24,306 bases of DNA from a virus: positions 1-24,306 of the IMG/VR virus record IMGVR_UViG_3300032144_000319. One strand, 5' to 3'. The position numbers and the translations under genes were made by a program. How positions within the stretch are numbered: position 1 is the stretch's first letter; every line of letters starts with the position of its first letter. The notes under the pieces are model-generated. The model was not told the DNA's origin, did not search any database, and worked only from the letters and a program-made list of their open reading frames with translations. Shown one piece after another: positions 10,636 to 24,306 of the stretch.

Positions 10636-10860
10636 TCAGTTCCAGGACGAGACCGAGGCCTCGCCCAGGTGCTTGGCCGCGGTGCGGCAGATGGCGATGC
10701 CGACGAGCTGGCTGTCACCCCAGTTGCCGGCCCACTTGACCGCGCACTCGCGCGCCACCGTCGTCCACGAGCAGCCGAGCTCGACCCGGAGGTACCGGAC
10801 GAAGGCCGCCCGGTCGTCGGTCATGGTGATGCCCCAGCGGGCCGCGTCGAGGGTGCTCAT
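10636..10860 (-). CDS. Small conserved protein of unknown function, 74 aa
   Basis: ATG 10860 overlaps the stop of the integrase frame (ATGA). The protein has the pattern LRVELGCSWTTVARECAVKW, then WGDSQLVGIAICRTAAKHLG, ending in SSWN. I recognise this layout (ELG.SWR.VA, then L.G..LC..AA..LGE, with a terminal WN) from small uncharacterised proteins of GC-rich bacteria and their phages. Function unknown. Coupling to the integrase frame means it would be cut off from the integrase promoter after integration. Confidence 0.65.
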   Translation of the reverse strand: MSTLDAARWGITMTDDRAAFVRYLRVELGCSWTTVARECAVKWAGNWGDSQLVGIAICRTAAKHLGEASVSSWN

Positions 10861-12512
10861 CGCGCGGCCCCCTTCCGCGCCGACGCGGCGAGCTCGGCGC
10901 CGGCCGACTGCAGCACCAGCGCGGCGAGCTCGGTCGCTCGGGCATGTAGGTGTTCGCCGCCAGCGAGCACGCTCCCAGCGAGTCGAACGCAGGGCCCGTT
11001 CATCACGGCGCTGGCCAGCTGCAGCGCCAGATCGTCGCACGGCGCGCCGTCGGCCCCCGCCGCCAGGTACTTTCTCGCGGCGTCCGCGGCCTGGCTTTGC
11101 CCTGCGGCAAGACGCGCATCGACCGGCGCGATTTGCCGCGAATCTGCGGGGTCACCCGATGTGGGCCTCACGTCGGGATTCGCGGTTTTTCGCGTAGGAT
11201 CGTGAGATGTGCGACGGGTTCGATTCCCGGCGCCTCCACCAAAATCCCCAACGATTACGCGGTCCGTCCCAGGCGTGGCAAACAACGCGGCAAACTCCCC
11301 GTCGCCTGGGACGCTCCTCGGGGCGGGGTCCGTCGCTGGCGTTGCGGGCGCTGCGACGGCGTACGAGATGGCCAGGATCGCGTCGCAGAGGGGCTCCCAC
11401 TCCCACTGGGTGTAGCAGTCGATGATCTCGCCCTTGGCGTTGTGGGTGATGCGCTCGAGCGGCGCCTTCAGCCGCCCGGTCGCGTCCCCGCGACGCGATG
11501 CGGTGATGGTCGTGTGGCGGGTCGAGTGTAGCGTGCGGCACTCGATGCCGAGCTTCTCGCAGCCGCGGCTGAACGCCTTGTAGGCCGAGCTCTTCGTGTG
11601 GCAGTCGCTCTTGTCGCCCAGGGTGCGGACCTTGTTCCAGCGCCCGGGGGCGAGCCGAGGCACGATGAAGTCGTCGGCCTTCGGCGCCCTGCCGTAGGTG
11701 AGCGCGAAGCCCTCGCGCCACCACCACTCGAGGAGCCCGGCCAGCACCGGGTGCACCGGCACGCGGCGGGGCTGCTCGTCCTGCTTGAGCGGCTTGCGGT
11801 CGTACTGCCAGTCGATCGCGAGCGCCCCGAGCGGCAGCGCGTCGCGCGTCCACTGGCGCCAGGTGAGCCCGCACACCTCGCCCTCGCGCGCGCCGGTGTA
11901 GAAGAACAGGTTGTTGAGCACGAGCACGCCGGGCGAGAGGAGCGGGCTGGTCGTGAGCCGCACGACTTCGTCCTTCGGATAGATCTCGCGCCGCTGCTTG
12001 CCCTTCGCGCCCGCTTGCGCGTCGGAGGGCCACGTGCCCCGCGGCAGTCGCCCGCACGGGTCGCGAGTGATCAGGTCGGAATCGAACGCCTCCTGCATCA
12101 TGGTGCGGAACACGCCGAACGCGTTCTTTGCCGTCTTGAGCGACATTGCCTGATCGTCGGCGGTCAGCGCCGCGACGAGCTTCTTCACGTCGGCCCGCGA
12201 CAGGTCCTGCAGCTTGGTCGAGCCGACGCGCGGCAGGATGTGGTCCCGCATCCGCTGCGCGTCGTCCTTCTTCGTCCGGTTGCCGCGCGACACGAACCAC
12301 TCGGCGGCGTAGTCGAGGATGGTGGTCGCGCCGGTCGCCTCGCGCGTGGGCACGTAGGTGCCGGCGATGACCTCGCGCTTGCGCTGCTTGTCGAGCCGCT
12401 CCGCCATGCGCTTGTCGGTGCCGACGGTCTCGAAGTGCGTCTTGCCGTTGAACCAGACGCCGATGCGGTAGACGGTGCGGCCGCTCGCGAGCTGTCGCTT
12501 ATAGACGCCCAT
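10857..12512 (-). CDS. int: Tyrosine-family integrase containing attP within its coding sequence
   Basis: 551 residues from ATG 12512, with a GGGGGAG site inside the end of the excisionase gene. The N-terminus has an arm-binding/SAM-like layout (residues 1-160). The catalytic residues are all present: Arg209 (TGAREGEVCGLTW), His329 and Arg332 (LHSTRHTTIT), His357, and the nucleophile Tyr367 (IDCYTQWEWEP). The catalytic domain is finished by about residue 386. The frame then runs through a Pro/Ala-rich linker, crosses the attP core at residues about 425-434, and continues 117 residues in a helical, Ala-rich tail to 10857 without a stop. An internal GTG at 11171 could start a separate gene but has no ribosome site. 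Integration would replace this tail with host sequence, as described for the Mx8 integrase. Confidence 0.93.
   Translation of the reverse strand: MGVYKRQLASGRTVYRIGVWFNGKTHFETVGTDKRMAERLDKQRKREVIAGTYVPTREATGATTILDYAAEWFVSRGNRTKKDDAQRMRDHILPRVGSTKLQDLSRADVKKLVAALTADDQAMSLKTAKNAFGVFRTMMQEAFDSDLITRDPCGRLPRGTWPSDAQAGAKGKQRREIYPKDEVVRLTTSPLLSPGVLVLNNLFFYTGAREGEVCGLTWRQWTRDALPLGALAIDWQYDRKPLKQDEQPRRVPVHPVLAGLLEWWWREGFALTYGRAPKADDFIVPRLAPGRWNKVRTLGDKSDCHTKSSAYKAFSRGCEKLGIECRTLHSTRHTTITASRRGDATGRLKAPLERITHNAKGEIIDCYTQWEWEPLCDAILAISYAVAAPATPATDPAPRSVPGDGEFAALFATPGTDRVIVGDFGGGAGNRTRRTSHDPTRKTANPDVRPTSGDPADSRQIAPVDARLAAGQSQAADAARKYLAAGADGAPCDDLALQLASAVMNGPCVRLAGSVLAGGEHLHARATELAALVLQSAGAELAASARKGAAR
11104..11294. 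repeat. Putative arm-type integrase sites (GYGGCAAA) around the attP core
   Basis: Four related 8-mers flank the core. Left side: GCGGCAAG at 11104-11111 and, inverted, TTTGCCGC at 11132-11139. Right side: GTGGCAAA at 11275-11282 and GCGGCAAA at 11287-11294, spaced exactly 12 bases. Two inverted repeats also occur: 9 bp (CCGCGAATC 11136-11144 with 11177-11185) and 11 bp (CGTCCCAGGCG 11265-11275 with 11303-11313). Short direct repeats on both arms of a core are the usual arrangement of arm-type sites for lambda-like integrases. Binding is inferred. Confidence 0.5.
11211..11241 (+). other. attP: attP core: 3' end of an alanine-type tRNA or tmRNA gene
   Basis: The bases GGTTCGATTCCCGGCGCCTC followed by CACCA (11217-11241) are a T-loop, the 3' half of a T-stem, an acceptor 3' strand, discriminator A and encoded CCA. 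There is no anticodon arm or 5' acceptor strand upstream, so this is only a 3' fragment. The U at position 70 of the acceptor strand (CGCCTCC) would pair with G3 in tRNA-Ala or tmRNA, the two RNAs that carry a G3:U70 pair. Identity with the host gene probably begins near 11215, because the base at 11214 would not complete the T-stem. Phage genes lie on both sides, so it is attP and not attL/attR. Confidence 0.82.
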
Positions 12513-12515
12513 CGC

Positions 12516-12878
12516 TCACTCCCCCGCCCGCGCGGCGAGCCACGAGAGGACCTCGGACTTGAGGAAGCGATACCTGTTGCCGCCGACGCGGCGACACGGC
12601 AGCCCCGAGTCGCGCACGAGCTTGCTCACGCTCTCGATGCACACGCCGAGGAGCTGAGCGGCCTCGGCACGGGAGAGGATCTCGTCCGCCTGGGCGACGG
12701 CGCGACCGTTGAGCTGCTCGCGCAGGGCCGAGACCTCACTGCGCATCGCGCGCAGCTCGGAGTAGACGTCCTCGGAGAACGTCTCGGCGGGCCTCTTGGT
12801 CTCGGGCACGCCCTGCAGCACGCGCTTCATGCGCGCACGCTCGAGCTCGGTCGGGGGGTGGTGGTGTCTCGTGGTCAT
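12516..12878 (-). CDS. Excisionase-like MerR/HTH_17-type DNA-binding protein
   Basis: 120 residues, ending three bases before the integrase ATG. The C-terminal half is a typical winged helix of the excisionase/HTH_17 type: ILSRAEAAQLLGVCIESVSK (67-86), LVRDSGLPCRRVGGNRYRF, then LKSEVLSWLAA. The N-terminal 65 residues add a predicted coiled coil (YSELRAMRSEVSALREQL), which is longer than in minimal excisionases. Adjacency to the integrase supports a role as recombination directionality factor, bending attachment-site DNA during excision. It could instead be a general regulator of the operon. Confidence 0.78.
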   Translation of the reverse strand: MTTRHHHPPTELERARMKRVLQGVPETKRPAETFSEDVYSELRAMRSEVSALREQLNGRAVAQADEILSRAEAAQLLGVCIESVSKLVRDSGLPCRRVGGNRYRFLKSEVLSWLAARAGE

Positions 12879-13159
12879 CGGGGGGTCCTCTCGGTGGGGG
12901 GCTTGGGCATGTCGTAACCGGCGGCCGTGGCGAGCTCCTGGGCGGCGACGGCCACGTCGGGGTGGAAGATCCAGAACCGAACGCCGTGCTCGTCGGCGGC
13001 GCGGAGGAAGTTGAGCGCGAACAGGCGCAGGTGGGCGAGCTCGCGGGCGCTCGCGTTCTCGCCCGGCGCCTGCTTGCTCAGCTGCCGCTTGTAGGAGGCG
13101 AGTTCCTGCTCGAGCTTCGTGATGCGCTTCTCGAGCGCGGCGGTCTTCGAGGCGGGCAT
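12875..13159 (-). CDS. Hypothetical protein, 94 aa
   Basis: ATG 13159 is preferred: it has an AAGG site seven bases upstream and overlaps the previous TGA by one base. A GTG three bases earlier is possible. Residues 1-35 form a coiled coil (ALEKRITKLEQELASYKRQL). The rest (LAHLRLFALNFLRAADEHG, VRFWIFHPDVAVAAQELATA) looks like a small folded domain. No family is recognised. Its stop overlaps the excisionase ATG. Confidence 0.6.
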   Translation of the reverse strand: MPASKTAALEKRITKLEQELASYKRQLSKQAPGENASARELAHLRLFALNFLRAADEHGVRFWIFHPDVAVAAQELATAAGYDMPKPPTERTPR

Positions 13160-16785: not shown

Positions 16786-16982
16786 CGGCAGCCGTGCTCA
16801 ATCGCAAGGTCGGCGCATTCGAGCTCGCGGTCGGCGTGGCCCTGACCGAGCTCGTCGTCGGCAGCGGGCCGCGCGCGGTCGTGTTCGGGCTGCTGGCGGT
16901 CGGCCTCTACTACGCCAAGCGCCACTTCAAGGGGGAGTTTTCGCTCGCGGACCTCCGCGGGCTCGTGAAAGGAATCAAATGA
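16782..16982 (+). CDS. Small membrane protein before the VWA gene, 66 aa
   Basis: TTG 16782 overlaps the previous stop; GTG 16794 is an alternative. Two hydrophobic stretches are visible: FELAVGVALTELVVG (about 13-27) and RAVVFGLLAVGLYYAKRHF (about 31-49), the latter with a positive flank, giving one or two membrane passes. Size and topology would suit a class II/III holin, but it is not next to the endolysin. It is coupled by ATGA to the VWA gene, so the two products may act together at the membrane. Confidence 0.6.
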   Translation: MTAAVLNRKVGAFELAVGVALTELVVGSGPRAVVFGLLAVGLYYAKRHFKGEFSLADLRGLVKGIK

Positions 16983-17566
16983 GCCAACTCGAACTAAATA
17001 AGGGCGACAACTTCATCTTCCTCTTCGACGTGTCGGGCTCGATGAGCGCTGCCGACACCCCGAGCGGCGCGAGCCGCATCGACTACCTGAAGGAAAAGCT
17101 CGCGACCTTCGTGGACGAGGCGGGCAAATACGACGAGGACGGCATCGACCTCGTCACGTTCGGGCACGCGGTCACGCCGAAACCCAAGCTCACGCCCCAG
17201 AACGCCAAGGAAGTGCTCGCGGGGCTAAAGGCGAACGAGAGCGCCACGGTCACCGACAAGGCGATCCAGAAGGCATACGACCTGCACAAGGCGGGCGGCT
17301 ACAAGCAGTCGGTCGTGTTCGTGGCGACGGACGGCGCGCCGAGCGACAAGGACGCCGTCAAGGAGGTCATCCGCTCGATCGCGGCCGAGATCAAGGATGA
17401 GCACGAGTTCGCCATCTCGTTTTTGCTGGTCGGCAAGGACGACGGCGTTCGCGCGTTCACGAAGGAACTCGACGACGACCTCAAGGCCAAGCACGACATC
17501 GTGGACGTCAAGGAGCTCGACGAGGTCGACTTCATCGGGGCGTTCGCCGGCGCGCTGCACGACTGA
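16979..17566 (+). CDS. von Willebrand factor A (VWA) domain protein with intact MIDAS
   Basis: 195 residues, almost exactly one VWA domain; ATG overlaps the membrane-protein stop, with AAAGGA upstream. The metal-ion-dependent adhesion site is complete: DVSGSM (Asp17, Ser19, Ser21) after strand FIFLF, a Thr at 90-92 (ESATVTDKA), and Asp118 in VFVATDGAPSD. VWA domains bind protein partners through a divalent metal. In phage they are uncommon and mostly resemble TerY-type or chaperone-linked VWA proteins. The soluble domain lacks a signal peptide, so it should stay in the cytoplasm, perhaps docked on the upstream membrane protein. Role unknown: virion assembly, packaging, or a lysogeny/host-interaction cargo gene. 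Confidence 0.88.
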   Translation: MSQLELNKGDNFIFLFDVSGSMSAADTPSGASRIDYLKEKLATFVDEAGKYDEDGIDLVTFGHAVTPKPKLTPQNAKEVLAGLKANESATVTDKAIQKAYDLHKAGGYKQSVVFVATDGAPSDKDAVKEVIRSIAAEIKDEHEFAISFLLVGKDDGVRAFTKELDDDLKAKHDIVDVKELDEVDFIGAFAGALHD

Positions 17567-23590: not shown

Positions 23591-24306
23591 ATGGCCGAAG
23601 AGAAGTCCGGCGCGTGCAAGCGCTGGAACGAGCTCGCGGACAAGGACGAAGCCGGACGCGAGGTCGCGCGCATCGTCGATTGGATCCGCAGTAACGACAC
23701 CGGGCGCCTCACCCGCTGCCAGGACGATCTCTCGCTCTACGAGGGCTGGCGCCTGCCCGGGCTCGAACCGAGCGCGTACCTGCGGCGGTCGAGCTACGAG
23801 CACGACGACTACAAGCGGCTGCGCTGGAACATCCCTCGTTCCCTCTGCCACACCGTGCAAGCCAAGCTCGCCGGCAAGAACCGCCCCAAGGTGCAGTTCG
23901 TCACGAGCTCGGCCTCCTGGCAGCAGCGCCGCCGCGCCTATCACCTCGACCGGTTCGCGGAAGCTCAGATGCACCTCCGGCAGGGCCAGCACGGCAACGT
24001 GTGGGAGCTCGGCGCGCTCGTCCTGCTGCACTCGCTCGTGCTCGGCGACGGCTTCGTCTACGTCTACGCCGACGACATCGAAGAGCAGGTCGCGCTCGAA
24101 CCGATCTTCCCCTGGCAGCTCTTCGTCGACCCGAACGACGCCGCCCAGGGCCCGGGCCCGAGCATGGCGCAGCAGCAGCTCCGCATGGGCCAGGAGCAGA
24201 ACCTGGGCGACGCGCTCAGCCTGGCGCGGAGCGGCCGCGGCAACGCCGCCGGCAACATGAAGATGGCCCTCTCGGAGAACGCGGCCACGAACGCCCAGAC
24301 CAACAT
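23591..24306 (+). CDS. Portal protein, 3' end outside window
   Basis: The frame runs from ATG 23591 to the window edge (238 residues). The portal ring sits at one vertex of the capsid and is the channel through which terminase drives DNA. Supporting segments: RRSSYEHDDYKRLRWNIPRS, LCHTVQAKLAGKNRPKVQFV, SASWQQRRRAYHLDRFAEAQ, then VLLHSLVLGDGFVYVYADD and ALEPIFPWQLFVDPNDA. The last resembles the P-W-E-L-x-V-D-P-x-D/E-A block found in phage portals of this style. It follows the large terminase, as is usual. The start has no ribosome site, and a leader hairpin precedes it. Confidence 0.82.
   Translation, partial: MAEEKSGACKRWNELADKDEAGREVARIVDWIRSNDTGRLTRCQDDLSLYEGWRLPGLEPSAYLRRSSYEHDDYKRLRWNIPRSLCHTVQAKLAGKNRPKVQFVTSSASWQQRRRAYHLDRFAEAQMHLRQGQHGNVWELGALVLLHSLVLGDGFVYVYADDIEEQVALEPIFPWQLFVDPNDAAQGPGPSMAQQQLRMGQEQNLGDALSLARSGRGNAAGNMKMALSENAATNAQTN

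Follow-up and report, generated by a model that had tools for sequence, protein, structure and literature searches.

Very few elements are described as carrying an att site within their own integrase gene (PMC4701971), and Mx8 and SSV are treated by the authors of Islander as integrases known to extend across attP (PMC4383910). In phage Mx8, a 112-residue tail of Int is reported to be replaced by 13 residues on integration, with the lysogen form being less active (PMC4701971); a second report describes an altered specificity of that form (PMC6070905). In the archaeal suicidal integrases (SSV1, pTN3, and pT26-2), the att site also resides in the integrase gene and integration splits the gene, but into N- and C-terminal parts that are both inactive (PMC8371274). 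In mycobacteriophage BPs, attP lies in a coding gene whose C-terminus is altered by integration as a switch, but that gene encodes the repressor (PMC4557955). Finally, the streptococcal ICEs in rumA have att in the integrase gene and differ at the C-terminus between excised and integrated forms; their integrases are serine enzymes and their target is a protein-coding gene (PMC4701971).

The locus described here lies on a viral sequence of 24,306 nucleotides (IMG/VR record IMGVR_UViG_3300032144_000319), the whole of which is referred to as the window. Its integrase gene (int) resembles that of Mx8 (IntP; Mx9 is a relative) most closely: the tyrosine integrases are homologous, attP lies in int antisense to a tRNA-like 3' end, a C-terminal tail of similar size would be replaced on integration, and an HTH gene is located upstream of int (PMC4701971, PMC6070905). 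It differs from Mx8 in that the target is a tmRNA, the tail domain is undetected in Mx8, and a downstream gene overlaps the int stop codon. Unlike in the archaeal systems, the catalytic domain is wholly on one side of the core and is left intact; unlike in BPs, the altered gene is the integrase; and unlike in the streptococcal ICEs, the enzyme is a tyrosine integrase. The features of the locus are as follows.

10857..12512, minus strand: int, which contains attP and encodes a 551-residue Mx8-type tyrosine integrase (open reading frame, PHROG match, Mx8 homology, invariant residues)
12363..12512, minus strand: N-terminal domain of Int (first 50 residues), with three strands and one helix; it probably binds arm DNA (AlphaFold2 pLDDT about 76-89)
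11343..11990, minus strand: catalytic domain of Int, about residues 175-390, with R209, H329, R332, H357, and Y367 (PHROG match and invariant residues)
12516..12878, minus strand: gene for an HTH_17 protein, excisionase-like, upstream of int in the position of Mx8 uoi (Pfam, PHROG)
11215..11241, plus strand: attP core, the 3' end of a tmRNA gene (ssrA), antisense to int codons 424-433 (Rfam tmRNA model, 27-nt ssrA identity, relatives at intact ssrA)
11132..11140, plus strand: candidate integrase arm site TTTGCCGCG (TTTGCCRCG motif)
11274..11282, minus strand: candidate integrase arm site TTTGCCACG (TTTGCCRCG motif)
11286..11294, minus strand: candidate integrase arm site TTTGCCGCG (TTTGCCRCG motif)
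10860..11213, minus strand: sequence past the core, the C-terminal part that would be exchanged on integration (core position, reconstructed forms of relatives)
10893..11102, minus strand: conserved domain of the tail, spanning about residues 471-540 and predicted at low confidence to be helical (homologues beside tRNA cores, dN/dS, AlphaFold2 models)
10636..10860, minus strand: next gene downstream; its ATG and the int stop codon overlap (ATGA), and it would lose the int promoter in a lysogen (sequence; the junction is alike in the sister phage G001)
9699..10718, minus strand: further downstream open reading frame, conserved in G001, without a family match; the true start may be internal (open reading frame list, G001 comparison)

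The 551-residue product matches the PHROG integrase family (E=4.6e-27), and no phage record matches it better than Mx8 Int (28% over residues 20-379; pair E=2e-34). In an alignment of the window integrase with five Myxococcota relatives and Mx8, the catalytic residues R209, H329, R332, H357, and Y367 are invariant, and by homology the protein is a distant relative of Mx8 Int. AlphaFold2, run on single sequences, was confident only for the N-terminal 50 residues, whose fold pattern points to probable arm-DNA binding. The product of the adjacent upstream gene matches Pfam HTH_17 (E=6.7e-11) and a PHROG excisionase/regulator family (E=1.7e-8). Close relatives of the integrase were scarce: no plasmid relatives were found in the plasmid search, a peptide-pattern search of viral contigs and genome contigs yielded none that was confirmed, and a search with a two-sequence alignment returned only Mx8 itself and one distant integrase.

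The preliminary description of this DNA, made from the sequence alone, had proposed that the int frame runs through the 3'-end core of a tRNA or tmRNA and continues for 117 residues beyond residue 434. The Rfam tmRNA model aligns at 11171-11241 on the plus strand (E=1e-5 for the stretch), which agrees with that proposal and places the core within the int frame, C-terminal to the catalytic Y367. The match falls under the gathering score of the family because the T-arm, acceptor strand, and CCA alone are present, all intact, and the remainder of the gene is missing. A prophage of Sorangium cellulosum So ceGT47 has at its attL an ssrA 3' end that is identical to the window over the 27 nt at 11215-11241. 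The target had been called an alanine-type RNA and can be specified further as tmRNA; by eye, acceptor-stem position 3 faces U, consistent with an alanine-charged RNA.

Long open tails by themselves were rejected as evidence, given a GC content of about 70%, and open stretches of about 100 codons are indeed not rare at 69% GC. One could thus suppose that the tmRNA piece is a remnant, that attP lies elsewhere, and that the frame is open by chance. We regard this as barely credible, since several features of the locus speak against it. GC3 falls to 0.5-0.6 over residues 406-480 and returns to 0.73-0.9 in the tail, the pattern expected if the DNA flanking the core is constrained as attP and the tail is ordinary coding sequence, and the int stop codon overlaps the start of the next gene (ATGA). 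There are exactly three copies of the motif TTTGCCRCG in the 24-kb window, spread over no more than about 165 bp and lying to either side of the core; it was picked post hoc, and the sites are treated as candidates. Chance readthrough is further contradicted by relatives that occupy ssrA and share this core and by purifying selection on homologues of the tail, both described below.

Searches with the integrase gave matches in 37 of 379 genomes of the phylum and in 54 of 184 genomes of the order to which G119 belongs; much of the genome data consists of draft assemblies. At 18 of the loci examined, the 3' end of int adjoins a gene for a tRNA or a tmRNA, and in all 18 the integrase frame runs antisense into this gene, for about 10-97 residues. 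The targets are tmRNA at ten loci (i.e., ten related integrases are found at ssrA), tRNA-Asp at three, tRNA-Ala at two, and tRNA-Leu, tRNA-Ser, and tRNA-Met at one each, and different relatives use all three antisense frames of the core. A control set of 57 other integrase loci was uninformative, as an RNA gene was found near the integrase end at the Sorangium locus only. Genome G119, which carries one of the two nearest relatives, has its integrase at ssrA, and both the core and the frame in which it is read are those of the window (GGGAGNRTR); homology between the two proteins stops at residue 434, that is, at the core, after which the G119 protein continues with some 87 residues of antisense tmRNA. 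A pairing of this tmRNA-directed body with a tail beside tRNA-Phe in the same genome was dropped because their cores differ. The two findings that the preliminary description held could overturn its reading, a stop codon ahead of the core in relatives and integration at some other place, were not borne out: all 18 frames run across the core, and close relatives do integrate at ssrA.

Besides the integrase module, the window, a virus record, contains terminase genes and a gene for a RecE-like exonuclease. Our best guess for the host is a myxobacterium, because the core is identical to the ssrA 3' end of S. cellulosum So ceGT47 and the integrase has relatives in the same phylum. No integrated copy of the window phage was found in the genome data searched; we infer that this phage would integrate at ssrA. 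Among the other phage genes is one for a von Willebrand factor A domain protein (16979-17566; Pfam VWA_2, E=4e-11).

The search of related genomes suggested in the preliminary description, with a comparison of C-termini, allowed the integrated and excised forms of the gene to be set side by side. In six elements, a second copy of the core was located 13.6-60 kb away, and the excised form of the gene was obtained by scripted joining of the element ends. From lysogen to phage form, the number of residues past the core start changes from 20 to 85, 97 to 63, 18 to 91, 39 to 91, 36 to 77, and 12 to 92; the lysogen tail is the longer one only in G185 (97 vs. 63). In the Sorangium ssrA prophage, the change is from about 12 to about 80 residues past the core. 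Given the GC content, the openness of these tails is weak evidence when taken by itself. Thus, in these elements, and in two more that were traced from their orphan tails (below), the C-terminus is replaced on integration, the two forms differing after the core and the catalytic part being kept, as had been predicted for the window from its sequence. The phage-form tails of G195 and G380 finish in paired CxxC motifs that are zinc-ribbon-like and under Pfam cut-offs; they represent a third kind of tail, beside the helical domain of the window and an HTH domain (see G001, below).

Residues 471-540 of the window integrase match pieces of myxobacterial genomes that lack an integrase body, with 48-61% identity over 56-77 residues, and these pieces adjoin the 3' ends of tRNA genes. 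A tail profile matched 38 of the 184 genomes in the order of G119 (E<=1e-4), and another matched 13 of the 379 genomes sampled across the phylum (E<=1e-5). A tRNA T-arm motif was present within 330 nt upstream of the domain at 20 of 30 tail loci, whereas random stretches contained one in 9% of cases when taken from the same loci and in 2% when taken from other loci (p no larger than 2e-14). Three of the ten loci without the motif are cut by a contig end, and a fourth is L217, where the tail is still attached in frame to a 508-residue integrase. Scanning the tail loci with cmscan gave only one intact tRNA, a low yield that is due to partial tRNAs scoring too low. Homologues of the tail were absent among phage records, none was confirmed among viral contigs, and comparison of the tail with PHROG, Pfam, and PDB gave no match. 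AlphaFold2 models from single sequences are helical at low confidence.

The preliminary description put the tail at about the size of that of Mx8, and the sizes do agree (117 vs. 112 residues). The tail profile nevertheless misses the Mx8 tail, and the window tail is a different module or one that has diverged strongly; membership in the Mx8 type is therefore claimed for the integrase and its arrangement only.

Two further observations concern the tail loci. For three tail domains, at L186/L204 (Thr), L120/L205 (Phe, 3' half), and G390:C132 (Leu), the tRNA before the domain is in the sense direction; some elements may have attP reversed within int. Genomes G190 and G439 each contain five or six separate matches to the tail profile, which suggests either that several elements sharing this tail have integrated one after another or that copies have been split.

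If an orphan tail marks one end of an integrated element, its integrase should be found at the far end and should point at an antisense tRNA whose core matches. This was examined for five orphan tails on longer contigs. In G364, an integrase lies 15.8 kb from the tail, facing tRNA-Arg, with a perfect 46-nt shared core; in G337, one lies 40 kb away, facing tRNA-Asn, with a perfect 43-nt shared core. When the ends were rejoined, each gave one continuous frame, with phage forms of 552 and 653 residues versus 468 and 551 in the lysogen, and the rejoined ends match the tail profile (E=5e-21 and 1e-24; both tails were members of the profile). No integrase was recognized for the other three (G467, where the contig ends after 22.8 kb; G390, 40 kb searched; G403, 100 kb searched). 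The best match of the G364 and G337 integrases is L217, at just 28-30%; hence, the tail domain is shared between integrase subfamilies.

An ATG between the core and the domain is absent in 15 of 20 orphan tails and present in five, and several have a GTG. The alternative that the tail is a small lysogen protein with its own start, not an integrase domain, draws on these five and on the GTG or TTG codons found there in many loci; it appears very improbable, given the 15 tails without an ATG, the continuous frames of the rejoined elements, and the intact 508-residue frame of L217. Among the 22 most similar pairs of tails, dN/dS is 0.18-0.76. The tail is thus maintained as protein, since it is adjacent to the core, mostly without an ATG, and has dN/dS below 1, despite having no integrase upstream of it in the lysogen.

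A sister phage offers a comparison with an unrelated integrase. G001 is a 41-kb viral contig that is syntenic with the window and has 71-89% nucleotide identity to it on both sides of the module, whereas window positions 10872-12931 have no nucleotide match in G001. In the same place, G001 encodes a 639-residue tyrosine integrase that is undetected using the window integrase. The frame of this integrase passes through the 3' half of a tRNA-Ala that lies antisense to it (anticodon CGC by manual reading), its C-terminal end is a Pfam HTH_17 domain (E=6e-9), and the ATGA overlap with the next gene is identical to that in the window. Four Myxococcota relatives of the G001-type integrase also cross an antisense tRNA-Arg. 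Repeats of about 22 nt flank the G001 tRNA core on both sides (L023 12930-13230), each encoding FGAPLVR in the integrase frame; from their sequence, they are probable arm sites that also code. Elsewhere, the last 160 bases of the window (24145-24306) match G001 736-895 and the preceding bases match G001 up to 26600, so that the window is without about 15 kb relative to G001; the end of the record may represent an assembly join or a real deletion.

The exchange of 10872-12931 as a unit between the two phages would fit an arrangement in which attP is kept in int simply to make enzyme and site a portable, compact cassette. The tail would then serve integration, its loss in the lysogen would be incidental, and a separate directionality factor would regulate; the HTH protein gene adjoining int suits this reading, as do the arbitrary lysogen tails, which argue against a designed lysogen form. 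We consider it possible but doubtful as the whole explanation, because a mere by-product need not show a tail domain that is conserved across subfamilies and lies past the core wherever both ends were found, and because the Mx8 forms are reported to differ in activity (PMC4701971). The ATGA overlap, kept in both phages despite unrelated integrases, raises another alternative, namely that splitting int cuts the overlapping operon from the int promoter, that this silencing is what is selected, and that the change in the protein is secondary. It seems unlikely to be the primary function, as it leaves the conserved tail protein domain unexplained, although it is compatible with a tail switch and does not exclude it.

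We thus favor, as likely, an ssrA-targeting integrase-attP module of Mx8 type whose tail is swapped on integration as a reversible record of state. In the circular phage, int would encode the 551-residue enzyme, composed of the arm-binding domain, the catalytic domain, a linker encoded by attP, and the conserved tail. Recombination at the tmRNA core would fuse the catalytic part to antisense host ssrA and give the lysogen an arbitrary, host-encoded C-terminus, with the tmRNA 3' end carried by attP restoring ssrA, while the tail would be stranded at the far end of the prophage without a promoter and usually without an ATG start; excision would rebuild int. As the tails of lysogen forms vary in length and consist of arbitrary antisense RNA sequence, the functional event is likely the loss of the phage tail, not the gain of a designed one. 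As to the function of the tail, we infer, by analogy with Mx8, that it most likely promotes or directs integration. Its loss would alter Int function; most likely, it would record integration in a heritable and reversible way, lower or redirect the activity of Int, and stabilize the lysogen. Detachment of the genes after int from the putative int promoter in the lysogen, also raised in the preliminary description, may be a second effect.

The principle is already known from Mx8; new here are the targeting of tmRNA, the conservation of a tail domain, and the breadth seen in Myxococcota. A literature search, made without most subscription papers, turned up no description of the tail domain, of integrase subfamilies having it in common, or of this breadth. 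It seems reasonably probable that distantly related tyrosine integrases of myxobacterial mobile elements carry, past an attP core within int, a detachable tail domain not described before, that its loss on integration acts as a general, built-in state switch at many tRNA and tmRNA targets, and that other modules, such as HTH, can take its place.

An att site within int is the rule in the integrase subfamilies sampled from one phylum, and the tail domain can be joined to the enzyme only when the element is excised. This also explains some annotation oddities, such as integrases that end in antisense tRNA peptides and orphan open reading frames that start with such peptides. What biases an element towards integration over excision is an old question, and here the full-length enzyme and its tail-swapped counterpart occur naturally side by side in many cases, at tmRNA as well as at many tRNA genes.
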